64,000 nucleotides of DNA, from NCBI GenBank assembly GCA_003598085.1, contig QZKU01000053.1:1-64000 (forward strand), written 5' to 3'. The position numbers were made by a program, and so were the translations under genes. Positions 493-48,058 of this stretch are shown in pieces (position 1 is the stretch's first letter; every line of letters starts with the position of its first letter). The notes under the pieces were generated by a model. It was given only the letters and a program-made list of their open reading frames with translations. It was not told where the DNA came from and ran no database searches. The DNA is from Candidatus Abyssobacteria bacterium SURF_5 (GTDB lineage: Bacteria; Abyssobacteria; SURF-5).

Positions 493-1542
493 TCACTGTC
501 CGCTCCTCACAATGTCGCCTAATTCCGTCAGAAGCGCATCCACTTCGGCGTCAGTGCCGACAGAAATGCGCAGGCAATTCTCGAGCCGTCGGATCGGGAA
601 ATATCGCACCAGAATCTTTCTTCTCTTCAACTCTTCATATAAAGGGGATGCATTATCGTTGTATTTTGTCAGAACGAAATTGGCGCCGGAAGGATAGACG
701 GTAAATCCTAATCCCCTGAGGCTTGCCGACATTCGCTCGCGAGTCTGAACAATCTTGCGCGCGTTCTCGCGCATATACTCAATGTCCTCGATGGCGGCCT
801 CGGCCGCCAACTGGCTCAGGAGATTCACATTGTAGGAATCCTTCGTTTTCATGAGGTCGGCAATGACGTCCTCAGCCGCAAGCGCAAAGCCAACTCGAAT
901 TGACGCAAGCGAGAATGCCTTTGAAAACGTTCGCAGAATAACCAGGTTCGGGCACTCGGACAGGATTGGAATACTTGAGGTATCGCTGAAGTCGGCATAT
1001 GCCTCATCCGCGACCACCAAACCGGCAAACGAATCGCACAGCCGCCTGATCACGTCGGATTTTACCGGCTTTCCCGTCGGCGAATTCGGATTGGCGATGA
1101 AGAAGAGCTTTCCGCTGCTGCGGAAAACCTCTTCCGACAGATCGAACTGTGCGTCGAGTTCGATCGCTTCGTGCTCGACCGCGTTCAGTCGCGCGAGCGT
1201 TTCGTAAAGCACGTATGTCGGGTACGTGAACAGAACCTTCTCATCCGGGTCCACAAAAGTTCGCACCAGCAGGCTCAGCACTTCATCAGAACCGTTGCCC
1301 ACGAAGACCTGGGCCGGCCGGACACCGTACGCAAGGGCGATCTTCTGCCGCAACCGGCGGAAAACCGGGTCGGGATATTTGCGCATGCGATCGGGGCTTA
1401 TCCGCGTCAAGACCTTGACGACGCGGGGAGATGGTGGGTACGGGTTTTCATTGGTGTTCAACTTAATGAAACCCTCTTCCTGCGGCTGCTCGCCCGGCAC
1501 ATAACCTTGCACGAGGTCGAGATGTCTTCGTCCAAATTTCAT
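493..1542 (-). CDS. hisC: histidinol-phosphate aminotransferase
   Basis: PLP-dependent class I/II aminotransferase of 349 residues that converts imidazole acetol phosphate to histidinol phosphate in histidine synthesis. Visible marks are the N-terminal NTNENPYPPSP segment, NPNSPTG at about 151-157, DEAY at about 179-182, and the PLP lysine in TFSKAFSLASIR (Lys208). The length is normal for the family. The start codon overlaps the hisD stop by 4 bp (ATGA), so the two are translationally coupled. It is the last gene of the long minus-strand run. Homologous aromatic-acid aminotransferases are the main alternative, but the hisD neighbour supports HisC. Confidence 0.93.
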   Translation of the reverse strand: MKFGRRHLDLVQGYVPGEQPQEEGFIKLNTNENPYPPSPRVVKVLTRISPDRMRKYPDPVFRRLRQKIALAYGVRPAQVFVGNGSDEVLSLLVRTFVDPDEKVLFTYPTYVLYETLARLNAVEHEAIELDAQFDLSEEVFRSSGKLFFIANPNSPTGKPVKSDVIRRLCDSFAGLVVADEAYADFSDTSSIPILSECPNLVILRTFSKAFSLASIRVGFALAAEDVIADLMKTKDSYNVNLLSQLAAEAAIEDIEYMRENARKIVQTRERMSASLRGLGFTVYPSGANFVLTKYNDNASPLYEELKRRKILVRYFPIRRLENCLRISVGTDAEVDALLTELGDIVRSGQ

Positions 1543-2837
1543 TTTTCGGTTCTTACCCTGATCGCGTTGGCGTGCGCGGTCAGTCCTTCAAGCTCGGCAA
1601 TGAGGACGATGTCGCGAGCGTCGGCTCTCAATTTTTCGGAAGTATAGCTGACGACATTGGTGACCTTGAGAAAATCCTCAGCGGACAGCGGCGATGAGAA
1701 TCTTGCGCGGCCGCCGGTGGGAAGCACGTGGTTTGGTCCGGCGAAATAATCGCCGACAGCATTCGGAGTGTGTTCTCCGAGGAAAACGACTCCGGCGTGC
1801 TCTATCTTTTCCAGCAGGCGCTGCGGGTTTCTGACGAGCAGCTCCAGGTGTTCCGGCGCTCGTCGATTTGCGAGCTCGACGGCCTCATCAATCGTTCGGC
1901 AAACGAGAACCAATCCGTTTCTGCGGAGCGACTCGCTGATGATGTGTCGCCGCTCCATCGCCTTCATTTGCATTCGGAGCTGGCGCAGCACGTTTTGAGC
2001 GAGCGCATCAGAGGTAGTAAGAAGGATGGCAGACGCCAGTTCATCGTGTTCGGCCTGTGAGAGCATGTCGGCGGCGACAAAGCGTGCCGAGGCCGAAGAA
2101 TCGGCGATGATTACTATCTCGCTCGGGCCGGCCTCCATGTCAATGGCCACCTCTCCCGTCACAAGCCGCTTGGCATATGTTACGAAGATGTTTCCGGGCC
2201 CGACGATCTTATCTACTTTCGGAATTGTTTCGGTGCCGAATGCCAGAGCCGCGACAGCCTGCGCCCCGCCGACGCGGTAGATATCAGTTGCGCCCGCGAT
2301 ATCGGCTGCGACCAGGAGTGCCGGATGAATTGACCCTCCGCTCGATGGCGGGGAAACCATCACAATGCGGCTGCAGCCGGCCACCTTTGCCGGCACGACA
2401 TTCATCAATACGGAAGACGGATAATACGCTTTCCCGCCGGGACAGTAGACGCCAACATTCGCGATCGCGGTTATCTTTTGTCCGAGAAATGAGTTGTCTC
2501 GTGCACGAGAGCCCCAGCTCGCGCGAAGCGATTTCTTATGAAACGCGGTTATATTGGCGTGCGCTCTCTTCAGCGCGCGACGGGTATCCGGCGGAATTTT
2601 CCCATAGGCCGCCTCAATCTCACGGTGCTCTATTCGAAATTGATCGGGCCTTAGCGTGATTCCGTCGAATTTTTTCGTCAGCCGAACGAGCGCCTTGTCG
2701 CCATCGCGCCGGACCGAGCGGACAACGGATTTTACGACCACTTCAATCCTGGCAGATTCCTCTTCGGCAAGTCTCGAGAAGAGTGCTTTTTCGAGATGCG
2801 AGCGCGACAGGTTTGACGTATCCAGTTTTGTCAGCAT
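1539..2837 (-). CDS. hisD: histidinol dehydrogenase
   Basis: Zinc- and NAD-dependent enzyme catalysing the last two oxidations of histidine synthesis, cytosolic. The 432-residue length is standard. Family marks include the metal-site segment QAEHD (261-265), the catalytic pair in APEHLEL (Glu329, His330), and GPNHVLPTGG (about 368-376). It lies 5 bp downstream of murA and overlaps hisC by 4 bp. Having only hisD and hisC at the end of a translation/cell-wall operon means the other his genes lie elsewhere. Confidence 0.95.
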   Translation of the reverse strand: MLTKLDTSNLSRSHLEKALFSRLAEEESARIEVVVKSVVRSVRRDGDKALVRLTKKFDGITLRPDQFRIEHREIEAAYGKIPPDTRRALKRAHANITAFHKKSLRASWGSRARDNSFLGQKITAIANVGVYCPGGKAYYPSSVLMNVVPAKVAGCSRIVMVSPPSSGGSIHPALLVAADIAGATDIYRVGGAQAVAALAFGTETIPKVDKIVGPGNIFVTYAKRLVTGEVAIDMEAGPSEIVIIADSSASARFVAADMLSQAEHDELASAILLTTSDALAQNVLRQLRMQMKAMERRHIISESLRRNGLVLVCRTIDEAVELANRRAPEHLELLVRNPQRLLEKIEHAGVVFLGEHTPNAVGDYFAGPNHVLPTGGRARFSSPLSAEDFLKVTNVVSYTSEKLRADARDIVLIAELEGLTAHANAIRVRTEK

Positions 2838-2842
2838 GCGAT

Positions 2843-4099
2843 TCAGTCGGCCACCCGTCTTATGTCGGCCCCCAGCGATTTCAGTCGGCGCTCGATCTGA
2901 TCGTATCCTCTATCGATGTGATAAATACGGGAGATCTTGGTCTCGCCGCGCGAGACCAGGCCCGCCAGCACGAGCGCCGCGCTTGCCCGCAGATCCGAGG
3001 CCATCACTTCCGCGCCGGAAAGATGACTGACTCCATTGATAATAGCGGTATTGCGCTCGATACGGATGTTCGCGCCCATCCGGTTTAATTCGGCAACCTG
3101 CATGAAGCGGTTCTCGAAAACCGTCTCGGTTATCGAGCTGATTCCCGGTGTTACCGACATCAGCGCCATAAACTGAGCCTGCATATCGGTGGGGAATCCG
3201 GGATACGGCATAGTTCGAATCTTCACCGGCTTCAGCCCGTCAGGCACGGAGACCGTGATCGAAGGCCCGTTGGCTTCGATATTCGCGCCGGCGTCGCCCA
3301 GCATCTTCAGAAATTCGCCCAGGTGTTCCTCGATCACTCCATCAACGGTGACGCGCCCATTGGTGATGGCGCCCGCCGTAAGATAAGTCCCGGCTTCGAT
3401 GCGGTCGGGGATAATACAGTGCGTGGCAGAACCAAGGCCGCTGACGCCTTCTATCACTATTCGTGAAGTTCCCTCGCCCGTGATTTTCGCGCCGAGCGCC
3501 TTCAGAAATTTCGCCAGATCCTGCACCTCGGGCTCGCGGGCGGCATTTTCGATCACACTGGTGCCTTTGGCGAGAACGCATGCCATCAACAGATTCTCCG
3601 TCGCGCCGACACTCGCGTAGTCCAGGCAGATTTCCGCCCCGTGCAGCTTGCGGGCGGAAACCTGAACATAACCGCGGCCCGATTTCACCGATGCCCCGAG
3701 CGCCTCAATCCCTTTCAAGTGCAGGTCGATCGGGCGCAACCCGATGGCGCATCCGCCGGGAAGGGCGACTTTGGCTTTTCCCAGCTTGGCAAGGAGCGGG
3801 CCCATTACGAGCACGGAAGCGCGCATCGTCCGCACGAGTTCATACGGCGCGATGTGGTCCTTCAGGAGTTTGCAATCGACAGTGAGGGTTCCGGTGCCGA
3901 CATCATGGACCGTTGCTCCCATATGCTCGAGCACTTTGCTCATGGTCACAATGTCACGCAGGACCGGTACATTTTCAATGACACATGGCTGATCGGCAAG
4001 AATCGAGGCGGTCATAATCGGGAGAACCGCATTCTTCGCCCCCCTGATTTTGACCCGCCCCTTGAGGGGCCGTCCACCGCGAATGAGAAAAGCATCCAT
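2843..4099 (-). CDS. murA: UDP-N-acetylglucosamine 1-carboxyvinyltransferase
   Basis: MurA transfers enolpyruvate from PEP to UDP-GlcNAc, the first committed step of peptidoglycan synthesis. The start is set at the ATG giving MDAFLIRGGRPLKG (418 residues), because the frame upstream to 4162 adds a tail that does not look like MurA. Visible features are the GAKNA substrate motif (Lys22, Asn23) and the flexible loop PGGCAIGLRP with the catalytic Cys near residue 117. That Cys is the residue alkylated by fosfomycin, so the enzyme should be the sensitive type. It follows secG after 83 bp. Confidence 0.95.
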   Translation of the reverse strand: MDAFLIRGGRPLKGRVKIRGAKNAVLPIMTASILADQPCVIENVPVLRDIVTMSKVLEHMGATVHDVGTGTLTVDCKLLKDHIAPYELVRTMRASVLVMGPLLAKLGKAKVALPGGCAIGLRPIDLHLKGIEALGASVKSGRGYVQVSARKLHGAEICLDYASVGATENLLMACVLAKGTSVIENAAREPEVQDLAKFLKALGAKITGEGTSRIVIEGVSGLGSATHCIIPDRIEAGTYLTAGAITNGRVTVDGVIEEHLGEFLKMLGDAGANIEANGPSITVSVPDGLKPVKIRTMPYPGFPTDMQAQFMALMSVTPGISSITETVFENRFMQVAELNRMGANIRIERNTAIINGVSHLSGAEVMASDLRASAALVLAGLVSRGETKISRIYHIDRGYDQIERRLKSLGADIRRVAD

Positions 4100-4182
4100 A
4101 GAGATCGCCCGGCACGAATTGGACAGGTACAAAAACTGCGGGAAAGAAAGGTGACTTCCCATCCCGCATTCGAGTTCTTCGG

Positions 4183-4614
4183 TTATTCTTCGGCTTGCGC
4201 GGGTGCCGGCTGAGTTCCGGCGGCGGGCTGCTCCGGCGGCTGGGGAACGCTTTCTGCTCCGGGTTCCGCCGGCGGCGTCACGTCACCGGAGAAGGTTTCG
4301 ATTGGCACACCCTGCAAAGGAGACGGGGGCACCGCCTCTTCCTGCAGAATATCGCTCTGCGGGACAGCAGTTTGATCGCCCCACGGCGAAATAATCGCCA
4401 ACAGCAGCGAGGTCGTCATGAAAACAGCGGCAAGAACCCATGTGAGTCTGCCAATAAAGGTAGCACTCCTTGCGCCGAAGACAGTTTGGCTGGCGCCGCC
4501 CCCGAAGGCGGCTCCCAGCGACGCACCCTTGCCTGCCTGCAACAGGACGATGAGAATCAAACCGGTGCAGGCCAATACGTGTATGATCAAGAGAAGAATT
4601 CCAATCCAGGTCAT
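4183..4614 (-). CDS. secG: preprotein translocase subunit SecG
   Basis: Small inner-membrane subunit of the SecYEG channel. It has two membrane helices (about residues 4-25 and 55-77) separated by the typical Gly/Ala-rich loop LLQAGKGASLGAAFGGGASQ. At 143 residues it is longer than many SecG proteins because of a C-terminal Pro/Ala/Glu-rich tail. It lies 21 bp after tpiA; the tpiA-secG order is common in bacteria. Confidence 0.93.
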   Translation of the reverse strand: MTWIGILLLIIHVLACTGLILIVLLQAGKGASLGAAFGGGASQTVFGARSATFIGRLTWVLAAVFMTTSLLLAIISPWGDQTAVPQSDILQEEAVPPSPLQGVPIETFSGDVTPPAEPGAESVPQPPEQPAAGTQPAPAQAEE

Positions 4615-4635
4615 CCTATACGCTCTCCATATGAT

Positions 4636-5406
4636 TCATGATACGGCGGCTTCGCCCGCGCGTACTATTTGTACAAATGAGTCCGCAGTTAAACTCGCTC
4701 CGCCAATAAGGCCCCCATTGATATCCGGCTGCAGAAACAATTCCAATGCGTTTTCGGGTTTCACGCTCCCTCCGTACAGAATGGGAAGGTCGGACGCTGT
4801 GGCTGCCTTGAATCTATCCCGGACCAGCCGCCGGATTAGCGCGTGCACTTCTTGGGCCTGCCCGGGCGTTGCGTTCTTGCCAGTGCCGATGGCCCACACG
4901 GGTTCGTACGCAACAATCACCTGTGCAAATTGGTCCACCGCCACGTCATTCAACCCGCCTTCCACCTGTCTGACGATTACGGCTTCTGTCTGACCTTGTT
5001 CGCGTTGCGCTTCCGTCTCACCAACGCACATGATCGGCTTCAATCCAACTTTGAGGGCGGCATGAACCTTCTTGTTCACGGTCGCATCCGTTTCCCCGAA
5101 ATACTGCCGCCGCTCCGAATGGCCAATGATCACGCAGGCGCAGCCGGCATCCTTCAGCATGGCGGCGGAGACTTCGCCGGTATAAGCTCCCTGTGTCTCC
5201 CAATGCATGTCCTGACCGCCCAGCAGGAGCCGCGAGCCTTTAATAATGGAAGCGACCTCGGCCAGGGCCGTAAAAGGCGGACACACGACAGGAGTAACAG
5301 CCGGTTTGATCTTGGAAAGTTGCTTTTTTAACTGCGTTGCCAGCTTGCCGGCTTCGTCAATGAGCTTGTACATTTTCCAATTGCCGGCCACTATCATCGG
5401 TTTCAC
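4636..5406 (-). CDS. tpiA: triosephosphate isomerase
   Basis: TIM-barrel glycolytic enzyme of 256 residues interconverting dihydroxyacetone phosphate and glyceraldehyde 3-phosphate. All catalytic marks are present: GNWKMYK with the active-site Lys near the N-terminus, IIGHSERR with the catalytic His, [11 protein letters not shown] with the catalytic Glu, and GGASL near the C-terminus for phosphate binding. It sits between ribF and secG on the same strand. Confidence 0.97.
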
Positions 5407-5459
5407 GTCGCGCTTCTCCTCTGCGCCATCCGTTCCGGGTTCACAATCATAAAATTATA

Positions 5460-6401
5460 TCACACGCTTTTGCTTTGTTCAACAAGGATGTTCCGGGCCT
5501 TCTCAACATCCTTTTTGATCTGTTCCACGAGGGCATCGACGGAAGGAAATTTCCTTTCGTCGCGCAGTTTCGCGACAAAAGTCACCTCGACCTTCTCATT
5601 ATAGATGTCGTGATAGAAATCCATGATATGGACTTCAATCGTCCGCTTGCGCTCATTCGAGACGGTCGGGCGGAAGCCTATGTTCAGGGTGCCCGGCTTG
5701 CAGACATCCAGCACATTCACCCATACTGCATAGATACCATCGGGCGGAATAGCCTCGTGGCGCGGCTCGATATTGGCTGTCGGGAATCCCATCTCTCTTC
5801 CGAGACGTGCGCCTCCGACAATATCTCCGGTGATCGAGTACTTTCGCCCCAAGTACTTCTCGCTCGCTTGCAGATCGCCACAAAGCACGAGTTCTCGAAT
5901 GAGCGTGCTGCTTATCGGCTGGCCTTCGATCTCCACCGGTTCGACTTGCTCGACTTCATACTGATATTTCCGGCTCAATTCGTCGAGCAATGCGATATTC
6001 CCTTTTCGGCCCTTGCCGAATACCCAGTTATAGCCTTCGATGATAGCCCTCATGCGGAGCGACCCAACAAGAAAATCCTCGACAAAAGCGCGCGCCTCGG
6101 TATTCGCGAATTCGGGCGTGAACCTGACCAGACACAGCGCGTCAATCCCGAGTTGCTCGATCAGTTGCGCCTTCTTATCGGTGGTCGTAAGCAAATTGGG
6201 AGCGTCATGCGGGCTGAGCACTTCGCGCGGATGAGGGTCGAATGTCACAACACAGCTCTCGCCGCCATACTTGCGAGCCTTCTCTAGTACCCGTCGAATG
6301 ATTTTCTGATGCCCCAGGTGGACGCCGTCGAAAACCCCCAGCGTCACGCACGCGTTCTTCAATTGCGGAAGCGGATTGTCAAGATTAGAGAATATCAACA
6401 T
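5460..6401 (-). CDS. ribF: bifunctional riboflavin kinase / FAD synthetase
   Basis: Makes FMN and FAD from riboflavin. The N-terminal nucleotidyltransferase domain (about 1-180) carries GVFDGVHLGHQKII with the HxGH-type motif, and the C-terminal half is the riboflavin kinase barrel (KYSITGDIVGGARLGREMGF onward, including FPTANI). The 313-residue length is normal. Its place directly after truB is typical of many bacterial rbfA-truB-ribF operons. Confidence 0.95.
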   Translation of the reverse strand: MLIFSNLDNPLPQLKNACVTLGVFDGVHLGHQKIIRRVLEKARKYGGESCVVTFDPHPREVLSPHDAPNLLTTTDKKAQLIEQLGIDALCLVRFTPEFANTEARAFVEDFLVGSLRMRAIIEGYNWVFGKGRKGNIALLDELSRKYQYEVEQVEPVEIEGQPISSTLIRELVLCGDLQASEKYLGRKYSITGDIVGGARLGREMGFPTANIEPRHEAIPPDGIYAVWVNVLDVCKPGTLNIGFRPTVSNERKRTIEVHIMDFYHDIYNEKVEVTFVAKLRDERKFPSVDALVEQIKKDVEKARNILVEQSKSV

Positions 6402-38409: not shown

Positions 38410-39372
38410 ATGATCAAGAGCTTGAGTGTCGGCGAATTCATCGAGAGGACAAAAGAAAACCTCAAAATCCAGATTGTAGCTGGTGAAAGCGGGCTGGATC
38501 GCACTATCGCGATCTCTGACATTAACCGGCCAGGTCTCGCTCTGACCGGCTATCTGGATTTTTTTGCTTTTGACCGGGTGCAGGTCATGGGACTGACGGA
38601 GATAAACTACATGCGCCAGCTCGAAAAAAAGACGTTGATCGAGCGGCTGCAGCGCGTTTTCAAATACGAGATCCCGTGTTTCATTATCACACGCGGGTTG
38701 ACCGCTTCCGACGAATTCCTCGAACAGGCGGAGCGCGCCTCGGTGCCTATCCTGAGGTCGCTCTTGACGACCACAAAAGTCGTCAGTAAAATCATCGTCT
38801 TTCTCGACAACCAATTCTCGCCGGAAACCAGTCTGCACGGGGTCCTTGTGGACGTTTACGGAGTGGGAGTGCTGATAATGGGACGCGCCGGAGTGGGCAA
38901 GAGCGAGTGCGCTCTGGAACTTATCGAGCGCGGCCATCGCCTCGTTGCCGACGACGTCGTCTTTATCCGACGAAGGGGCGACCGTTATCTGTATGGGGAA
39001 GGCTCAAGCCTGCTGCGCCATCACATGGAGATCCGCGGCTTGGGCATCTTCGACGTGAAGAATATTTTTGGAGTCGGCGCGATCAGGAACACGAAGCGCA
39101 TCGGCCTGATTATGGAATTGGAGGACTGGGACGCCTCGAAGGAATATGACCGCGTGGGCGTCACTCAGGATTCACATACCGTACTCGAAGTGAAGCTTCC
39201 GAAGATAACGGTGCCGGTAAGGCCGGGAAGGAACATGGCTATCATCGCCGAGGTCGCCGCTCTGAATCATCGACTCAAGGAGATGGGGATGGATAGCGAA
39301 CAGCTTCTGAGCGATCGCCTTACGCAGGCGCTAACGGCCGGCGAGAAAGCTTCGGAAGATTTCGACCTATGA
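38410..39372 (+). CDS. hprK: HPr kinase/phosphorylase
   Basis: Phosphorylates and dephosphorylates the regulatory Ser of HPr. 320 residues: an N-terminal DRTGG-like domain (about 1-130), then the kinase with Walker A GRAGVGKSECALELIERGHRLVADD and the conserved EIRGLGIFDVKNIFG stretch. The HPr gene 1.8 kb downstream carries the target Ser. rapZ overlaps its end by 4 bp. Confidence 0.95.
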   Translation: MIKSLSVGEFIERTKENLKIQIVAGESGLDRTIAISDINRPGLALTGYLDFFAFDRVQVMGLTEINYMRQLEKKTLIERLQRVFKYEIPCFIITRGLTASDEFLEQAERASVPILRSLLTTTKVVSKIIVFLDNQFSPETSLHGVLVDVYGVGVLIMGRAGVGKSECALELIERGHRLVADDVVFIRRRGDRYLYGEGSSLLRHHMEIRGLGIFDVKNIFGVGAIRNTKRIGLIMELEDWDASKEYDRVGVTQDSHTVLEVKLPKITVPVRPGRNMAIIAEVAALNHRLKEMGMDSEQLLSDRLTQALTAGEKASEDFDL

Positions 39373-40232
39373 GACGGAGCCACTTTATCGTTGTCACCGG
39401 CCTCTCCGGCGCGGGAAAAAGCCAGGCTATCAAATGTCTCGAGGATCTTGGCTTTTTCTGCGTGGACAATCTGCCGACGATGCTGATCCCCAAGTTCGCC
39501 GAGGTGTGCACGGAGTCCGGCGGACGCCTGAAACGAGTGGCACTGGGCATCGACATTCGAGAAGGCGGTTTTTTGAACCGGCTCTTCGATGAGCTGAAAT
39601 ACCTGAAGAAAGAAGAATTCAGTTACGAGATTCTTTTCCTGGAGGCGCGCGCGGAAGTTCTTGTCAATCGATACAGTGAGACGAGGCGAAAGCATCCTCT
39701 CAGCGGCCACACGTCGCTGCCGGCAGCGATCGAGGGCGAGCGCAGGAAGATGGCGAAATTGCGCCGGCTCGCCGATTACATCGTCGATACGAGCGACCTG
39801 AATATCCATCAGTTGAAGGACCGCCTCTTCAAGATTTTCTCAGCGAATGAGATGCGGCCCATCATCGTGAATGTGCTCTCGTTCGGATATCGATACGGCG
39901 TTCCGCAGGAAGTGGATATGCTTTTTGATGTCAGATTCCTGCCGAACCCGAACTACGTCCCCGCTCTCAAACACTGCACGGGGAATCAGAAAAACGTCGC
40001 CAAATACGTCCTCGATTCGGCGGCGGGCGAAAAGTTCGGTCAGAAGCTGGAGGACATACTTGATTTTCTCCTGCCTCTCTTCGAACGGGAAGGCAAGAGC
40101 TATTTGACAGTCGCGTTCGGGTGCACGGGCGGCCGCCACAGGTCGGTTGTCTTTGCTAACAAGATGGGCAGATTCCTCAAGGAAAAAGGGATCGAGGCCA
40201 GCGTGATACATCGGGATATACGGAAGAAATGA
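39369..40232 (+). CDS. rapZ: RapZ/YvcJ family nucleotide-binding protein
   Basis: 287 residues with Walker A VVTGLSGAGKSQAIKCLEDLGF, CVDNLPTMLIPKF, and a C-terminal domain with GCTGGRHRSVVFANKM. In E. coli RapZ is an RNA adaptor sensing glucosamine 6-phosphate; in Bacillus YvcJ is a GTPase. The role in this organism is not fixed by sequence. It overlaps hprK and the HPr gene by 4 bp each. Confidence 0.93.
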   Translation: MRRSHFIVVTGLSGAGKSQAIKCLEDLGFFCVDNLPTMLIPKFAEVCTESGGRLKRVALGIDIREGGFLNRLFDELKYLKKEEFSYEILFLEARAEVLVNRYSETRRKHPLSGHTSLPAAIEGERRKMAKLRRLADYIVDTSDLNIHQLKDRLFKIFSANEMRPIIVNVLSFGYRYGVPQEVDMLFDVRFLPNPNYVPALKHCTGNQKNVAKYVLDSAAGEKFGQKLEDILDFLLPLFEREGKSYLTVAFGCTGGRHRSVVFANKMGRFLKEKGIEASVIHRDIRKK

Positions 40233-40540
40233 GAAGACCACGGAAACCGGAAAACAAAATCCTCAAACGAAAGGTAATCGTCCGAAACGAAGTTGGCCTG
40301 CATGCCCGGCCGGCTAAGAATCTTGTCACCGAGCTCAATAAATACAGCTCAGACGTTTTTATCGAGAAAGACGATTACAGGGTGAATGCCAAGAGCATCA
40401 TCGGCGTGCTCACGCTTGCGGCGGTGAAAGGGACCGAATTGCTCATCACCGCAGAAGGCGACGACGCCGAAGAAGTGCTCGATCTTGTCGAGCGCATGTT
40501 CCAGGAATGTCTTGGTGAGAATCCGCAGGTGGTTACGTGA
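40229..40540 (+). CDS. ptsH: phosphocarrier protein HPr
   Basis: 103 residues. The phosphoryl-carrying His is His25 in VGLHARPAKN and the regulatory Ser is Ser56 in NAKSIIGVL, spaced as in canonical HPr (His15, Ser46). It therefore has a basic N-terminal extension of about 10 residues (RRPRKPENKILKRK) absent from standard HPr. It overlaps rapZ by 4 bp and the EI gene by 4 bp. Confidence 0.95.
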   Translation: MRRPRKPENKILKRKVIVRNEVGLHARPAKNLVTELNKYSSDVFIEKDDYRVNAKSIIGVLTLAAVKGTELLITAEGDDAEEVLDLVERMFQECLGENPQVVT

Positions 40541-42303
40541 AAAAGTTAAACGGTATAGGGGCATCCCCCGGTATAGTGATCGGAAAGGCGTTCGTCATTT
40601 CCAGTGAGGGATTTCAGATCATCTCGCGCGACCTCTCGGAAGACGAAGTGGAACGCGAGATTGAAAGATTTCAGCAGGCAATATCTGAAAGCAAGCAGGA
40701 AATCCTCTCGATCAAAAGGCAATTCGGGCAGGACTCGAACGAGCCCGGACTCGCCGAGATATTCGACACCCACGTCCATCTGCTGGAAGACGTGCTGCTG
40801 ATGGGGGAAACCATTGAACACATCCGCAGAGAACGCAAGAACGCCGAACACGTCTTTGCCCGAACTGTCCAGGCCCTCGAGGAAAAATTCAATTCGGTGG
40901 ATGATGAGTATTTCCGGCAAAGAGTCCATGATATTCAGGATGTTAGCGGTCGCATCCTCAGGAAGCTTCTCGGGAAGGAACGGCGGACGCTTGCGAATCT
41001 TCGGGAAAAGGCCATCCTCATCACGCGCAACCTGACTCCGGCCGAGACCGCCAGCATGGATCGACGCAACGTGCTCGCCTTCGCCACCGATTTCGGCGGA
41101 CGGACTTCGCATGCATCTATCATGGCCAAGGCGCTTGGCATTCCGGCCGTGGTCGGCCTGCAAAATATCACGGCACAGGTGCGTAACGACGACGTCCTCA
41201 TTATCGACGGCCAGCACGGAATAGCCATTATCGATCCCGACGAACAGACCCTCAACGAGTATCAGATGCGGAGGGAACGCGTCCTTGAATCGGAACGGCT
41301 CCTCGCGCAGTTGCGACATCTGCCGGCGCAGACGCTCGATGGGGTTACGGTCGTCCTTTCCGCCAACATCGATTTGCCCGAGGAAGTCGAGCGGGCGATG
41401 GAGCACGGCGCCGAAGGCGTCGGCCTTTTGCGCAGTGAGTTTCTGTATCTGAACAGAACGCTTCCGCCAGACGAAGACGAGCAGGTCGAGGCATATGCCA
41501 AAGTCGTGAAAGCGGTTGCCCCCAACAGCGTCATCATCCGCACACTGGACCTCGGCGGCGACAAGGTCCCGGGACATTTCCCCTATCATGAAGCAAATCC
41601 CTTCATGGGGTGCCGCGCCATCAGGTTATGTCTCAACCACCCTGAAATCTTCAAGCCTCAGCTCAGGGCTATCCTGCGCGCCGGCGCGGCCGGAAACGTG
41701 AAGTTGCTCTTCCCGATGATCACGGGTCTCAATGAGCTGAGGCAGGCAAAGCAGATTCTCGACGAGGTGAAGCAGGAACTGCGCGCCGAGGGCGCCGCCT
41801 TCAATGAAAACACACCCGTCGGCGTTATGATTGAGACGCCGTCGGCCGGCATCATCGCCGACCTGCTGGCGCCGGAAGTGGATTTTTTCAGCATCGGCTC
41901 GAATGATCTGATCCAGTACATGCTGGCGATCGACCGGGTAAACGAGCGCATCGCGCACTTGTACGAGCCCACCCACCCGGCCGTGCTGCGCATGCTCAAA
42001 TCGATCATTGATGCGTCCGAACGCGCGGGAGTAGAACTCAGCATCTGCGGCGAAATCGCAGGCGATCTGCCGCTGGCGCTCGTGCTGCTGGGGTTCGGCA
42101 TAAGGAAGTTCAGCATGGCCGCAACCATCATTCCTGAAGTAAAAAAACTGATTCGCTCGATCTCGTTCGGGGATGTCAAGAACATGGCTCACCGCCTGCT
42201 CACATTTTCGACCCCGGACGAAGTGCGAAGTGAAATTCAGCGGAGCATGGCGAAACTGGTAACCAACTACAGCGACTACGAACTCTTTGTCTCTCGAACC
42301 TGA
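40537..42303 (+). CDS. ptsI: phosphoenolpyruvate-protein phosphotransferase (enzyme I)
   Basis: Transfers phosphate from PEP to HPr. 588 residues from a GTG start (MKKLNGIGASPGIVIGKAFV). The phosphohistidine lies in GGRTSHASIMAKALGIPAVVG; the PEP-binding barrel has GVGLLRSEFLYL, DLGGDKVPGH and FSIGSNDLIQYMLAIDR. The length is normal. No EIIA, EIIB or EIIC is encoded nearby, so the phosphate acceptor beyond HPr is unknown. Confidence 0.96.
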   Translation: MKKLNGIGASPGIVIGKAFVISSEGFQIISRDLSEDEVEREIERFQQAISESKQEILSIKRQFGQDSNEPGLAEIFDTHVHLLEDVLLMGETIEHIRRERKNAEHVFARTVQALEEKFNSVDDEYFRQRVHDIQDVSGRILRKLLGKERRTLANLREKAILITRNLTPAETASMDRRNVLAFATDFGGRTSHASIMAKALGIPAVVGLQNITAQVRNDDVLIIDGQHGIAIIDPDEQTLNEYQMRRERVLESERLLAQLRHLPAQTLDGVTVVLSANIDLPEEVERAMEHGAEGVGLLRSEFLYLNRTLPPDEDEQVEAYAKVVKAVAPNSVIIRTLDLGGDKVPGHFPYHEANPFMGCRAIRLCLNHPEIFKPQLRAILRAGAAGNVKLLFPMITGLNELRQAKQILDEVKQELRAEGAAFNENTPVGVMIETPSAGIIADLLAPEVDFFSIGSNDLIQYMLAIDRVNERIAHLYEPTHPAVLRMLKSIIDASERAGVELSICGEIAGDLPLALVLLGFGIRKFSMAATIIPEVKKLIRSISFGDVKNMAHRLLTFSTPDEVRSEIQRSMAKLVTNYSDYELFVSRT

Positions 42304-42323: not shown

Positions 42324-43223
42324 ATGCAAAGCATCCGGAAACTCCTGAAAATCAGTGCTCTCGTCCTGCTGGGCGTCTTGTTGGCAATGATAAGCGCCAC
42401 GCTCGCAACGGCGGGTTCTTTTCTTATTCTTGCATCGGTCTCCGGTTCTTATATCATCCGGCGCTATGAGATCCTGAATACGCCGCCCCCCAATTTCAGC
42501 TTTGCCGGAACTGATCCGCGTGAAAGATTCCTCGGGGTGATCGGAGAAGCGGCCGCGGCATTCGCATGCGCACTCCTTTATCCGTTTGGCTACTTCACGA
42601 GCGCGTACTCCCGAAATCGGCTTGTGCCCGGCGAGCGCCCGCTCATCCTGTGCCACGGCTATATGGCCAATCGCTCAAACCTGCTGTGGCTCGGCTGGCG
42701 ACTCAGGAGAGCCGGCCGGCATAACGTGTTTATCCCCAACTTTCGCCCGGCATCAGCTCCCATCTCGCAATTCGCCGAAATGTTATCGCGTGAGGTAACA
42801 GCCGCGCTCGAGATGACGGGCGCCGAGAAAGTGGATCTTGTCGGGCACAGCATGGGCGGATTGGTGATTCGATATTATATTGAGCGCCTGGGCGGAGCGC
42901 GATTTGTTGAAAACGCGATAACGATCGGCGCGCCGCATTGCGGCACGAAAACCGCCGTCTTGAGCCTGTTCAGAACCGCCAGCCAGTTCTGCCCAAATGC
43001 CCCCTTTATTGAAGAATTCAACGCCGCCGCCCCCGCCGGTTCGGTGAATATGGTTGCGATTTGGTCGGAATTTGATAATATTGTTCTTCCGCCGCAGAAC
43101 GCGATGCTGCCGGAGCCCTACAAGAACGCTATGGTGAAAAACGTCGGACATGTGGCATTGCTGTTCTCCGGACAGGTTTTCTCTCAGGTGCGCCGCGCTC
43201 TGAACGAAAAACATGAAACATAA
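42324..43223 (+). CDS. membrane-anchored alpha/beta hydrolase (lipase-like)
   Basis: 299 residues. One or two membrane helices lie at about 8-45 (LVLLGVLLAMISATLATAG), followed by a hydrolase domain: LILCHGYMANRSNLLWLGWRL (oxyanion loop HG) and the nucleophile elbow VDLVGHSMGGLVIRYY with the active Ser. NVGHVALLF near the end offers the catalytic His. It resembles triacylglycerol or phospholipid esterases. Start ATG is 20 bp after ptsI. It overlaps the next ATPase gene by 11 bp, so it belongs to that cluster. Confidence 0.8.
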   Translation: MQSIRKLLKISALVLLGVLLAMISATLATAGSFLILASVSGSYIIRRYEILNTPPPNFSFAGTDPRERFLGVIGEAAAAFACALLYPFGYFTSAYSRNRLVPGERPLILCHGYMANRSNLLWLGWRLRRAGRHNVFIPNFRPASAPISQFAEMLSREVTAALEMTGAEKVDLVGHSMGGLVIRYYIERLGGARFVENAITIGAPHCGTKTAVLSLFRTASQFCPNAPFIEEFNAAAPAGSVNMVAIWSEFDNIVLPPQNAMLPEPYKNAMVKNVGHVALLFSGQVFSQVRRALNEKHET

Positions 43224-44214
43224 GATAATAATGAACACAAAAATCTTCGAAAAACGCCTGTTGCTGATCTCGGGAAAGGGCGGCGTCGGCAAGAGCACTG
43301 TCTGTGCCTCGTTCGCCCTTACTGCGTCAAGAATGGGCAAAAAGGTGCTGGTCGTTGAGATGGACGAGAAGGAGCGCATCTCGCGCCTCTTCGGCCATGC
43401 CAACGTCGGATACGAAGGCGCAGCCGTATATCCGAATATTCATGTCAAGAATCTCCTGCCGGACCTGGCCCTCAATGAGTTCGTCGAAGTGCAGGTGAAA
43501 CCGAAAGCGGTGGCGAGACAGATAATCAACAGCCAAATTTACAAGTACTTTGCCGCCGCCGCCCCCGGCCTGAAGGAGTTCGTGACGCTGGGGAAAGTGA
43601 TGCTGCTCGAGGACGAGACCGGACGGGGCGGCCGGCCGATCTATGACCTTATCGTCGTGGATGCGCCTGCGACCGGTCACGGGGTGCAGTTCCTCCGCGT
43701 TCCCTTCGCGGCCGCCGAATTAGTGAAAATGGGATGGGTCCGCAAACAGGCGGAACGCATTATCGACCTCCTTACCGATCCGGAACGCACTCTGCTTAAC
43801 ATTGTCACGCTTCCCGAGGAGATGCCGGTGAACGAGACGGTGGAGCTGTGTCAGAGTGTTGACCGGCTGCTGGGTATCCCGATCGGGTACATCATCATCA
43901 ACTCGGTCTTTCCGCAGGTGCTGAAGAAAAAGAACCTGAAAGTGTTCGAGGCAATGAAGCAGCGGGCGGGAGCCAACAGCCGCAGAAAACTGTCGCGCGA
44001 GGAACAGGAAGCGGCCGGCATGATGTTCACCTGCTATGAGGCCGCAAACCGGCGAAGACAACTGAATGAGTTTTATATCACCAGACTCAAGCGGCAGCTC
44101 AAATACGATTGTCTAAGGATCCCCTTTGTCTTCACAAAAGCATTCGATTTCAATCTGATCGATGAGGTGAGCTCACACCTGGTGCGGGCGCTTCAGAAAG
44201 ATGGCGGGGAGTAG
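43213..44214 (+). CDS. ArsA/Get3-family ATPase, subunit 1
   Basis: 333 residues. The deviant Walker A ISGKGGVGKSTVCASFA keeps the signature Lys (Lys22) as in ArsA and Get3. The switch II region reads LIVVDAPATGHGVQFLRVP. A second in-frame ATG six codons in (MNTKIFEKRLLL) is an equally good start. No ars genes are near, so arsenite export is unlikely. It directly precedes a second homologous ATPase, making a likely heterodimer. Confidence 0.85.
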   Translation: MKHKIIMNTKIFEKRLLLISGKGGVGKSTVCASFALTASRMGKKVLVVEMDEKERISRLFGHANVGYEGAAVYPNIHVKNLLPDLALNEFVEVQVKPKAVARQIINSQIYKYFAAAAPGLKEFVTLGKVMLLEDETGRGGRPIYDLIVVDAPATGHGVQFLRVPFAAAELVKMGWVRKQAERIIDLLTDPERTLLNIVTLPEEMPVNETVELCQSVDRLLGIPIGYIIINSVFPQVLKKKNLKVFEAMKQRAGANSRRKLSREEQEAAGMMFTCYEAANRRRQLNEFYITRLKRQLKYDCLRIPFVFTKAFDFNLIDEVSSHLVRALQKDGGE

Positions 44215-44215
44215 G

Positions 44216-45388
44216 ATGGAACTGGACGAACTGGTCGACCGGCGCGAGATCATCATTTGCTGCGGCAGCGGCGGAGTCGGCAAGACGACGACCGCGGCGG
44301 CAATCGCCATGCACGCCGCCATCAAAGGTAGAAAAACGATCGTGCTCACGATCGATCCTGCGAAACGCCTTGCGAATTCGCTCGGCTTGCCCGAATTGGG
44401 AAACGAGGAGCGCAAAATCCCTCCGCACAAGTTCGTTGAGGCCGGCATTCGACCGAAAGGCGAATTGTATGCGATGATGCTCGACACGAAGCGCACCTTC
44501 GACGATCTCATCGCGAGATTCTCCCTGAACCCCGACATGCGGGAGAAAATCCTGTCGAATCCGCTCTATAGAAGTATTTCAGATACCTTCGTCGGCTCGC
44601 AGGAATACATGGCGATGGAAAAACTCTACGAGATCTATTCGGAAGGCGACTACGATCTCATTGTCCTCGATACCCCGCCCACCAAACACGCGCTCGATTT
44701 TCTCGATGCGCCCAGACGCCTCACCGATTTCCTCGACGGCCGCATCCTCAAATGGTTTCTCAAACCATATTTTTCGGCGGGACGCGCAGGCATCCGCCTG
44801 TTCCAGCGCGGAACTTCCGTTATCCTGCGAACACTCGAGAGAGTCACCGGCATCACCGCCCTCAAAATAGTTTCCGATTTCTTCATCGCATTCGAAGGCT
44901 TGTACGACGGCTTTAAAGAGCGTGCCGAGGCGGTCTACGACCTGCTGCACGATCGGGTGACCGCATTCGTTCTGGTCACCAGTCCGGAAGACCTCACCAT
45001 CGAGGAAGCCATCTATTTCCACGACAAGCTGATCGAGTACGAAATGCCTTTTTGCGGTCTCATCATCAACAAGGTGCACAATGACTTTTCCGCCGAAAAC
45101 GTCAAAGAGGCGGACGTTCGGCGCCTCGCGCGAAGGGTAGTCGCCGCGCTGGCCAGAAACGAGGATGAGAGGAAGGCGATGCAAACGGTTGCCGAAGACC
45201 TGGCGGAGAACCTGCAGAATTTCCGCAATCTCGCCGCCATCGACCAGGAAAATATCCGCAGCTTGACCGACAGCATTGATTCGCAAGCATCGGTCCGCAT
45301 TGTACCGTTCTTCGATACCGACGTCTATGATATACAAGGATTGCTGCTCATCAACGAATACCTTTTCGGCCCCGACGGAAAAAAGTGA
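44216..45388 (+). CDS. ArsA/Get3-family ATPase, subunit 2
   Basis: 390 residues from the ATG preceded by GGGGAG; an ATG 5 codons earlier is possible. Motifs: IICCGSGGVGKTTTAAAIA, where Ser18 replaces the signature Lys of the deviant Walker A; switch I LTIDPAKRLANSLG; switch II VLDTPPTKHALDFLDAPRRL, as in ArsA and Get3. Residues 110-190 are a hydrophobic helical insertion that could bind a lipid or tail-anchored helix. It starts 1 bp after the subunit 1 stop. Confidence 0.85.
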   Translation: MELDELVDRREIIICCGSGGVGKTTTAAAIAMHAAIKGRKTIVLTIDPAKRLANSLGLPELGNEERKIPPHKFVEAGIRPKGELYAMMLDTKRTFDDLIARFSLNPDMREKILSNPLYRSISDTFVGSQEYMAMEKLYEIYSEGDYDLIVLDTPPTKHALDFLDAPRRLTDFLDGRILKWFLKPYFSAGRAGIRLFQRGTSVILRTLERVTGITALKIVSDFFIAFEGLYDGFKERAEAVYDLLHDRVTAFVLVTSPEDLTIEEAIYFHDKLIEYEMPFCGLIINKVHNDFSAENVKEADVRRLARRVVAALARNEDERKAMQTVAEDLAENLQNFRNLAAIDQENIRSLTDSIDSQASVRIVPFFDTDVYDIQGLLLINEYLFGPDGKK

Positions 45389-45407
45389 GAGGATGCGGGA
45401 GGGGAAT

Positions 45408-45851
45408 ATGACAAAGGCAACGTTCAAGAGCAAGAAAGAATTCAAGGAAGTGATGGATAAGCTGTTCACCATCATGAGCACCGATCCGAAGGTCGGCCCC
45501 AAACTTGCCGTCGCGCGCGTGCCGCAACGGTGGGAGTTCACCGACATGGGACTCGTGCTCAACGCGACTTTCGCTGACGAGAAAGCCGCCCGGAAAGGAC
45601 ATTTCCTCAAGTGGGTTTGGGGCGATGAGGAGTGCGACTGGGAATCTGAAGTCGAGATGAAAATGAAATCGGATGTCGCAAATAAGTACTTCCAGGGAAA
45701 AGAGAATGTGCCCGTTGCCGTCGCCACGGGCCGTATCAAGACCAGGGGCAATTTCGCCAAGGCGCTCAAGCTTATCCCGATAACCAAGCCCATCTATGAA
45801 AAATATCGGCGGATGCTGGAAGAAGAAGGGTATGAGCACCTTCTCCTCTAA
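45408..45851 (+). CDS. SCP2-like lipid-binding protein
   Basis: 147 residues beginning MTKATFKSKKEFKEVMDKLF after GGGAGGGG. The pattern of a KEVMDKLF helix, VARVPQRWEFTDMGLVLNATF and ANKYFQGKENVPVAVATGRI resembles the SCP2 sterol-carrier fold, which binds acyl chains. Similarity is judged by eye only. It lies 19 bp after the second ATPase and overlaps the next gene by 20 bp, placing it in the same transcript. Confidence 0.6.
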   Translation: MTKATFKSKKEFKEVMDKLFTIMSTDPKVGPKLAVARVPQRWEFTDMGLVLNATFADEKAARKGHFLKWVWGDEECDWESEVEMKMKSDVANKYFQGKENVPVAVATGRIKTRGNFAKALKLIPITKPIYEKYRRMLEEEGYEHLLL

Positions 45852-47535
45852 TCAGGAAGTACTTCCGCAAACGCCTGGCCGGGACGACGGTCGGTCAGAA
45901 GTGCACAGTTCGTCTACATCTCGCTTTCTGCGGCCGCTCTTGTTTTTTCTTATAATCCCTGCTCTGCTGTTTCTCGTCCTCTACTCCCCGAACGTGCACG
46001 GGCCGGTCGACCTGTTTCACGAAGGCGAGGCGCTCGCGCCTGCATTTGAAATCTCGCACGGGAAACTGCCGTTCCGCGACGTATACCTGCAGCACGGGTG
46101 GGGTGTCAATGCCTTTCGAGCACAGCTTGCTTTCCTCCTTTTTGGCGAGTCCGTGGCCGCACACCGAAGGCTTTCCTATGGCGCAAGCGGCCTTCTTGTT
46201 CCCATAGCCTGGATCGGGGTGTACCTGCTCCTCTATTCGCTATTCGAGAAGAAAGTGTGGATTCTGCCCATATTACTTCTGCTCGCGCTTGCAGATGTTC
46301 TGATCACCGATCGCCACCTGCTGCCCTTCCTCAGCTTCGCATTGCTCATGTCCGCCGTCCGAGGTCGGCGAAGATTTCTTTTGATTGCGGGAGCACTGGC
46401 CGGTGCAGCTATCTTTTACAGCCTCGACACCGGCGTTTATGCCTTTGTGATAGGTATCTTATTTCTTGCCGCCTGTTCTATCGGCGACAGGTCCCGTTCC
46501 GCTTCAGACTTCGGAAAGTCAATTGTTGTTTTTCTCGCGGGCGCAATCGCGGCCAGTCTTCCGTTTCTCCTCTATCTCCTGGGGCATGGGCTGCTCGATG
46601 ATTTCTTCAGCAACATCTACCTGCAACTCCGGTATCAGCAGGAGACATGGGGAATTGCGCCGCCGTCTGCCGCATCGCTGCTCGGTCCTTTTGAAAATGC
46701 CACAGTCCGTAATAGAACTTTTTATGTTTTCATCAAGTGGTACTTCCCGGCGCTCGTCTATGTCATCACCCTGATCGCATTGCTGCCGGTATTGCGTTCC
46801 CGCTCGCTCCACAAGAAAGACCTCCCCATCGCTCTCGTCCTGCTCATGGGAATCGTTTTCTACCCGTCGGCGCTGGGGCGCGCGGATGAAGGGCACCTGA
46901 TGTACGCTGTCGCGCCGTTTTGGATATTGGGCGTCTGCTTTCTGAGCCGAGCAGGAGGACTGAAGAATGAAGAGGTGAACGCGCAATCTGCTTTTCGATA
47001 CCGGCGCCTTCTTTTTTCCCGAACTGCCGCAATCCTTGTTATTGTGGGATTTGCCCTCTACTTCTGGGCCACGTGCCGCAACGGAGGCGCACTGCAGCAA
47101 CGGTATCACTTGGCGAGATGGAAACAGTCAGGAATGCCGGGATTTGTCGAATTGAATATAGAACGAAGCGGTGGAATCAAGGTTCCCGCGCAACAGGCTA
47201 AGGATATCGAAGAAACAGTTGCCTTTATTAACCAACATACTCAGCCCGATGATCCGGTTTTCGATTTCTCGAACCAGGGCATCTACTACTTCCTCAGCGG
47301 CCGCCAAAACTCCACCATGTTTTGTCAGACAGCCTATGCAATACCCGCCAGATTACAGGCGAAAGCTCTCGAACAGTTGCGGGCGTCACCCCCCGCCGTA
47401 GTCATCATGCGAGAGGAAGCCGCTTACAACCCTCGCCGGCGACAGCCCGCCATTGACGAATGGCTTCAAACGGAATACGAAGAGGCCGCGCGCATCGGGC
47501 CAAACATCATCCTCCTGCCGGCCCAAAGGTCTTAG
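45832..47535 (+). CDS. polytopic membrane protein, possible GT-C-type glycosyltransferase
   Basis: 567 residues from MSTFSSNQEVLPQTP. About ten membrane helices: one at 30-50, then a conserved-looking acidic loop (VDLFHEGEALAPAFEISHG, FRDVYLQHGWGVN), several helices to about 400, and a soluble C-terminal part (VAFINQHTQPDDPVFDFSNQGIYYFL). This layout, with an acidic motif after the first helix and a soluble tail, is that of GT-C enzymes such as GT39/GT83. The assignment is tentative. It is the last gene of the cluster and converges on a cNMP-binding gene 10 bp away. Confidence 0.55.
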   Translation: MSTFSSNQEVLPQTPGRDDGRSEVHSSSTSRFLRPLLFFLIIPALLFLVLYSPNVHGPVDLFHEGEALAPAFEISHGKLPFRDVYLQHGWGVNAFRAQLAFLLFGESVAAHRRLSYGASGLLVPIAWIGVYLLLYSLFEKKVWILPILLLLALADVLITDRHLLPFLSFALLMSAVRGRRRFLLIAGALAGAAIFYSLDTGVYAFVIGILFLAACSIGDRSRSASDFGKSIVVFLAGAIAASLPFLLYLLGHGLLDDFFSNIYLQLRYQQETWGIAPPSAASLLGPFENATVRNRTFYVFIKWYFPALVYVITLIALLPVLRSRSLHKKDLPIALVLLMGIVFYPSALGRADEGHLMYAVAPFWILGVCFLSRAGGLKNEEVNAQSAFRYRRLLFSRTAAILVIVGFALYFWATCRNGGALQQRYHLARWKQSGMPGFVELNIERSGGIKVPAQQAKDIEETVAFINQHTQPDDPVFDFSNQGIYYFLSGRQNSTMFCQTAYAIPARLQAKALEQLRASPPAVVIMREEAAYNPRRRQPAIDEWLQTEYEEAARIGPNIILLPAQRS

Positions 47536-47545
47536 CCGGTTCTTT

Positions 47546-48004
47546 TCAACCCATCCACTCGACCTCTTTCGGATATGATTCGCCGTACTTCGCCTTCATG
47601 TACATCATGTTCGTCAGGCGGAGGCGGTGGCAGAGAACACCGATAATATTGGTCAAGAAGCCTTTCGGTATTTTCTTCTCAAGCATCTTGTTCAGCACGT
47701 CTTCACTCAGCACGAGCACCTGTGACGGCTCCCTCACCAGCGCATGGGCTGACCGGATATGCCTCCCAAACATCGCCATTTCCCCAAAAATCTCACCCGC
47801 ACCAAGCTCGGCCAACACTTTCTTATGTGTATCGTATTCGTCAATGATGTCTATTTTCCCTTTGATCAGGATGAACATCTCATGGGCGACGTCGCCCTTC
47901 TTAAACAACAACTTTCCCTTGTCGATTGGGCGGATCATCCCCAGGTCGATAATGCTGTTGATTTCCGATTTACTCAGCCCTTTGAATACATCAAAACCCG
48001 GCAT
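47546..48004 (-). CDS. cyclic-nucleotide-binding domain protein
   Basis: 152 residues starting MPGFDVFKGLSKSEIN after AGGAGAGAGAGCT; an earlier ATG at 48046 lacks a site. A single cNMP fold: FKKGDVAHEMFILIKGKIDI and the phosphate-binding cassette LGAGEIFGEMAMFGRHIRSAHALV. No DNA-binding or output domain follows, so it is not a CRP regulator; the C-terminal helices may pair with a partner. Confidence 0.85.
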   Translation of the reverse strand: MPGFDVFKGLSKSEINSIIDLGMIRPIDKGKLLFKKGDVAHEMFILIKGKIDIIDEYDTHKKVLAELGAGEIFGEMAMFGRHIRSAHALVREPSQVLVLSEDVLNKMLEKKIPKGFLTNIIGVLCHRLRLTNMMYMKAKYGESYPKEVEWMG

Positions 48005-48058
48005 AGCTCTCTCTCCTGAGGATGTTAGGAATGTCTGCAGTTTCAAAAATTATATGAA

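Follow-up and report, generated by a model that had tools for sequence, protein, structure and literature searches.

What do two ATPases of the ArsA/Get3 fold do when they are encoded between a lipase-like hydrolase and a stand-alone SCP2-like carrier? The question is raised by positions 42324-47535 (+ strand) of a 64,000-nt stretch of contig QZKU01000053.1 from Candidatus Abyssobacteria bacterium SURF_5; the whole stretch is called the window here. Our tentative answer, to which we give a probability of about 0.42, is that the pair would act as an asymmetric Get3-type heterodimer, BagA/BagB, handling hydrophobic or amphipathic cargo at membrane or lipid-body surfaces and co-encoded with lipid-hydrolysing and lipid-carrying partners. 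In other lineages, genes of the type found at storage granules, phaR and phasin, stand beside such pairs. Five predicted open reading frames (ORFs) occupy the locus, all on one strand, and genes of the regulatory phosphotransferase system (PTS) precede them:

38410-42303, + strand: hprK (38410-39372), rapZ (39369-40232), ptsH (40229-40540) and ptsI (40537-42303), from the ORF list
42324-43223, + strand: ORF1, lipase-like alpha/beta hydrolase with an N-terminal hydrophobic segment and putative triad Ser176-Asp251-His276 (Pfam, alignment, hydrophobicity scan)
43231-44214, + strand: BagA-type Get3/ArsA-fold ATPase, signature lysine kept, GKGGVGKS (NCBIfam, PDB relatives, tree)
44216-45388, + strand: BagB-type Get3/ArsA-fold ATPase, signature lysine replaced, GSGGVGKT (NCBIfam, profile, tree)
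45408-45851, + strand: stand-alone SCP2-fold protein of 147 aa (AlphaFold2 model, Foldseek against PDB, homologues)
45832-47535, + strand: ORF5, multi-pass GT-C-glycosyltransferase-like membrane protein outside the conserved unit (gene order in relatives, low-confidence model)

A BagA/BagB-type ATPase pair

Both ATPases matched Pfam ArsA_ATPase (109 and 115 bits), in agreement with the first-pass annotation, which had seen two ArsA/Get3-like ATPases. The best NCBIfam match was BagA for the first (165 bits, below the equivalog cut-off of 400) and BagB for the second (352 bits, below the cut-off of 521). The nearest solved chains were those of PDB 6BS3, Rv3679 and its partner, with 6bs3_A as the best chain for BagA and 6bs3_B matched by the BagB profile at 6e-103. 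In a tree of 64 proteins that included actinobacterial pairs and left out the Mycobacterium tuberculosis sequences themselves, the window ATPases fell into a BagA clade (support 100/100) and a BagB clade (96/89), outside the Get3 clade. The two Bag clades also held actinobacterial, myxococcal, desulfobacterial and acidobacterial pairs. With two adjacent ATPases of this fold on the same strand, one in each Bag clade, the window pair is by its sequences a member of the described BagA/BagB family, of the M. tuberculosis Rv3679/Rv3680 type. The relation to paired actinobacterial ATPases proposed earlier was thereby borne out, and the remark that the set was not recognised as described does not hold for the ATPase pair.

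The M. tuberculosis genes (Rv3679-Rv3680; PDB 6BS3, 6BS4 and 6BS5) likewise encode an adjacent pair, whereas the window pair scores below the NCBIfam cut-offs and is accompanied by a lipase and an SCP2 protein behind PTS genes. The heterodimer is known for 6BS3 as a deposited complex and is a prediction for the window pair. The Bag pair was described by Hu 2019 and Whitaker 2020, as cited in PMC10597346.

The signature lysine was present in every BagA (78/78 parsed sequences and 28/28 in a second set) and in none of the BagB proteins (0/92 and 0/30). In sandwich dimers of the ParA/MinD/Get3 kind, this lysine reaches the ATP of the partner. Because only BagA carries it, the two ATP sites are predicted to be unequal, one complete (that of BagB) and one incomplete. 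To our knowledge, BagA and BagB have no assigned cargo.

Get3/TRC40 and Get3d (ArsA plus an HSP20 domain; PMC10248533) share the ATPase fold of the window pair, and a targeting role in the Get3 sense was therefore weighed, in which BagAB would deliver tail-anchored or single-helix membrane proteins and the hydrolase and SCP2 protein would be mere operon neighbours. The fold and the nearest solved relatives speak for such a role, as do the mostly lineage-specific occurrence of the hydrolase and SCP2 neighbours and the membrane-anchored protein made next door from ORF1. However, both ATPases lie outside the Get3 clade, their GET3_arsA_TRC40 scores (108 and 110 bits) stay below the cut-off of 135, neither has a CxxC motif (the Get3d of the window genome lacks it too), and the neighbours that recur across lineages are soluble PhaR/phasin-type proteins. 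We consider this role unlikely. The window pair also differs from Get3 and Get3d in having no HSP20 domain and in the missing signature lysine of BagB. Far less probable is an arsenite or other anion pump, which the Pfam name "Anion-transporting ATPase" on both proteins would suggest: their NCBIfam ArsA scores were 59-62 bits against an equivalog cut-off of 650, they are separate chains placed in the Bag clades, and by inspection no arsenic gene was recognised among the neighbouring ORFs, as had been stated at first pass for arsenite genes.

A conserved four-gene unit behind PTS genes

The hydrolase scored above the cut-offs of Pfam Palm_thioest, Abhydrolase_1 and Lipase_2 (29.3 versus 20.3 bits for the last), and S176, D251 and H276 were invariant in an alignment of four sequences. 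Its best solved relatives in the profile search were Bacillus subtilis LipA-type lipases; the Lipase_2 score and the triad place it with the class 2/LipA-like enzymes, from which it differs by an additional N-terminal hydrophobic segment (residues 3-40 in the hydrophobicity scan). ORF1 is, as read from these features, a lipase-like, membrane-anchored protein with an intact Ser-Asp-His triad and a putative hydrolase activity.

The SCP2 protein scored 16.6-16.7 bits with Pfam PF02036, below the gathering cut-off of 21.3, and 12 of 20 homologues matched that family. Its AlphaFold2 model (predicted local distance difference test, pLDDT, 92.4) retrieved 37 PDB matches at E<=1e-3 with Foldseek, mostly sterol-carrier/SCP2 proteins, the rest alkylsulfatase/YjcS-type enzymes, and the SCP2 fold of the 147-aa protein was confirmed at the level of this model. 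It thus resembles solved SCP2 domains in predicted fold and differs from other stand-alone SCP2 proteins in its sub-cut-off Pfam score and its position directly after BagB. The earlier identifications of a membrane lipase-like hydrolase and an SCP2-like carrier were both upheld. An SCP2-like domain of the same subfamily forms the N-terminus of an 843-aa ORF in another genome (G041; L202, 6010-8541).

Start codons consistent with orthologues removed most of the apparent gene overlaps. The BagA and BagB ORFs open at 43213 and 44201, and orthologues favour starts at 43231 and 44216, the latter 1 bp past the BagA stop; the starts agreeing with orthologues are 45408 for SCP2, 19 bp past the BagB stop, and 45832 for ORF5, which leaves a 20-bp overlap with SCP2. 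Upstream, hprK, rapZ, ptsH and ptsI overlap one another or nearly so; ptsI was confirmed by Pfam, and the other three were named from sequence and gene order. Since the hydrolase begins 20 bp past the end of ptsI, the group hydrolase-BagA-BagB-SCP2 looks like the last part of a longer operon that includes hprK-rapZ-ptsH-ptsI, and it is probably co-transcribed with these genes.

Conservation was compared in three genera of the window family, represented by the window genome, G001 and G002. The run hprK-rapZ-ptsH-ptsI followed by hydrolase-BagA-BagB-SCP2 was kept in the same order in all three, the part from ptsI to SCP2 being spread over two contig ends in G002. Identities among the genera were about 65-74% for BagA and BagB and 76-78% for SCP2. 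In both relatives, the gene after SCP2 encodes a Ser/Thr kinase, and the G001 orthologue of ORF5 lies on a different contig; the conserved unit is therefore made of four genes, hydrolase, BagA, BagB and SCP2. The first-pass annotation had described a five-gene cluster forming one operon and had named a search for the gene order across genomes as its check. All five ORFs are real, and four of the five genes keep their order in the window family, but the fifth does not; the tight spacing agrees with an operon, but one that probably starts with the four PTS genes, which had been overlooked.

ORF5 was rejected as a cluster member, as its position is not kept in G001 and G002. It had no Pfam match, a distant paralogue matches PMT_2, and its low-confidence model (pLDDT 67.5) gave GT-C enzymes as top PDB matches with a TM-score of about 0.4-0.5. 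Beyond it, a convergent gene for a cyclic-nucleotide-binding (CRP-like) protein lies at 47546-48046 (- strand), with a perfect promoter-like TTGACA-18-TATAAT at 48078-48049.

The order hydrolase-BagA-BagB, on one strand and touching, also occurred in two other lineages (G045 and G289). In G045, these genes are followed by one for a 251-aa protein that matches no Pfam family and is hydrophobic in an N-terminal stretch (L211, 11475-12230); it occupies the place of SCP2 in the window order.

PhaR and phasin genes beside BagA-BagB in other lineages

Neighbours were clustered over 94 Bag loci, and only those supported by hidden Markov models (HMMs) or Pfam were used, because the communities from GC-rich genomes contain wrong-frame ORFs. 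From this clustering emerged PhaR, the regulator of polyhydroxybutyrate/polyhydroxyalkanoate (PHB/PHA) accumulation (PF07879). In a Desulfobacteraceae locus (L073), the genes upstream of BagA include those for PhaR and a phasin (PF05597), both confirmed by Pfam; the Bag loci of Myxococcus and Anaeromyxobacter have PhaR by HMM and a phasin-like gene below the Pfam cut-off. BagA, BagB, Get3d, PhaR and phasin stand in a row on one strand in G058 (L044, C610, about 856-5707, - strand). This row unites both kinds of Get3-like ATPase, Bag and Get3d, with granule-type proteins.

Seen from the other side, about 49 PhaR loci from diverse genomes included nine with a Bag/Get3 ATPase no farther than about 6 kb away; an estimate that ignores relatedness puts the chance expectation at 0.7 to 1.5. 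A further survey covered the phylum of G133; it was picked since G133 already showed the arrangement and so extends the observation rather than being a blind sample. PhaR was present in 43/46 of its genomes and BagB in 31/46, and in 21 of the 28 with both, PhaR and BagB are no more than about 3.6 kb apart; of the seven exceptions, one sits at a contig end and six come from a single family. Bag genes were found in the 1.5-kb flanks of 15 of 31 PhaR loci. At the BagB-centred loci of this phylum, PhaR-BagA-BagB lie on one strand, and overlapping or touching genes in this order are usual (L255, G133:C4, 5814-8399; L293-L321). In the family that has PhaR elsewhere, the gene directly upstream of BagA encodes a small helical protein whose phasin-like score is very weak (16-17 bits; L324, L328 and L351).

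Co-occurrence was analysed in mostly one-per-family genomes with the window family removed. By statistics that ignore kinship, BagB co-occurred with the hydrolase family (p 1.5e-5) and with PhaR (p 4.7e-5), and in G016 a homologue of the hydrolase directly follows PhaR. BagA-BagB is physically linked to PhaR/phasin-type genes in several lineages, and this linkage suggests that the BagA/BagB ATPases act on proteins or lipids located at hydrophobic surfaces.

The link is not plainly one to PHA storage. PhaR/phasin loci of the PHA-granule type (PF07879, PF05597) flank Bag pairs in other lineages but are absent from the window cluster, and the PhaR-BagA-BagB arrangement was not seen in the window genome. 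PhaC_N gave weak partial matches (20.9-30.6 bits) in 5/17 genomes and none in the window family, G132, G133 or G176, and an explanation by classical PHA granules is weakened by this null. As the window genome has no PhaC match, the Bag link is not simply one to PHA synthesis; it connects Bag to PhaR/phasin-type proteins, and not in any demonstrable way to PHA or triacylglycerol stores.

Proposed role of the cluster

In the window organism, BagA and BagB would form an ATP-controlled heterodimer to which hydrophobic or amphipathic cargo binds and from which it is released at the surface of a membrane or lipid body. The hydrolase and SCP2, a presumed acyl or lipid carrier, would be lipid-handling partners specific to the family and may serve the same pathway. 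Because the genes beside the pair encode a lipase-like hydrolase anchored in the membrane and an SCP2 carrier, the cluster probably serves to remodel or turn over lipid, either in membranes or in stores, as a module placed behind hprK-rapZ-ptsH-ptsI. The first-pass interpretation, an ATP-driven system that moves or loads a lipid or membrane substrate, was partly supported, and the results fit lipid loading and protein targeting alike.

Several observations weigh against this role. The only PhaR of the window genome precedes a phasin, and both lie away from the Bag cluster:

6803-9387 of L209 (G000:C17:12000-30000): same-strand PhaR and phasin genes (phasin: PF05597, 50.6 bits) that face the gene of a Get3d-type ATPase (ArsA plus ArsA_HSP20; Pfam)

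The PhaC_N null in the window family counts on the same side, as does WS/DGAT, which had no match in the window family and exceeded the cut-off in five genomes elsewhere. The actinobacterial loci showed no PhaR next to their Bag genes. SCP2 adjoining BagB was seen solely in the window family, and HMM scans found the hydrolase beside Bag genes in 0/80 named Bag loci; as general Bag neighbours both were rejected, the nearest SCP2 in these loci being one ORF 4.5 kb away in L125. The phenotypes reported for mycobacterial bagAB relate to glycerol, nitric oxide, citrate and survival under drugs, not to lipid bodies.

These phenotypes would fit a metabolic or stress regulator or chaperone acting apart from lipid surfaces, for which the PTS position would mean control by carbon status. 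Work cited in PMC10597346 ties mycobacterial bagAB to protection involving glycerol and nitric oxide, transposon mutants changed in antibiotic survival (PMC12216072), and the upstream hprK-rapZ-ptsH-ptsI genes are kept in the window family. Such a role does not account for the repeated association with PhaR/phasin, lipase and SCP2, however, and the PTS position of the Bag cluster is confined to the window family as far as seen; we regard it as rather improbable. Lipid-surface handling by BagA/BagB is the reading we retain. Its extension, in which BagA/BagB, and Get3d in some genomes, would handle amphipathic proteins of the phasin/PhaR type as well as hydrophobic-surface lipids, as a BagAB-PhaR/phasin-lipase-SCP2 module spread over several phyla and independent of classical PHA synthesis, is doubtful.

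The ATPase pair was already known. Searches of open-access text for Get3/ArsA with phasin or PhaR, judged partly by titles and term counts and without coverage of subscription papers, returned no paper on the link, and neither the union with lipase and SCP2 nor the PhaR/phasin association was found described in searchable text. The ties to PhaR/phasin, lipase and SCP2 offer a concrete candidate class of clients for BagA/BagB, and the tie to PhaR/phasin may explain why Get3-like ATPases are kept in bacteria without known GET partners.
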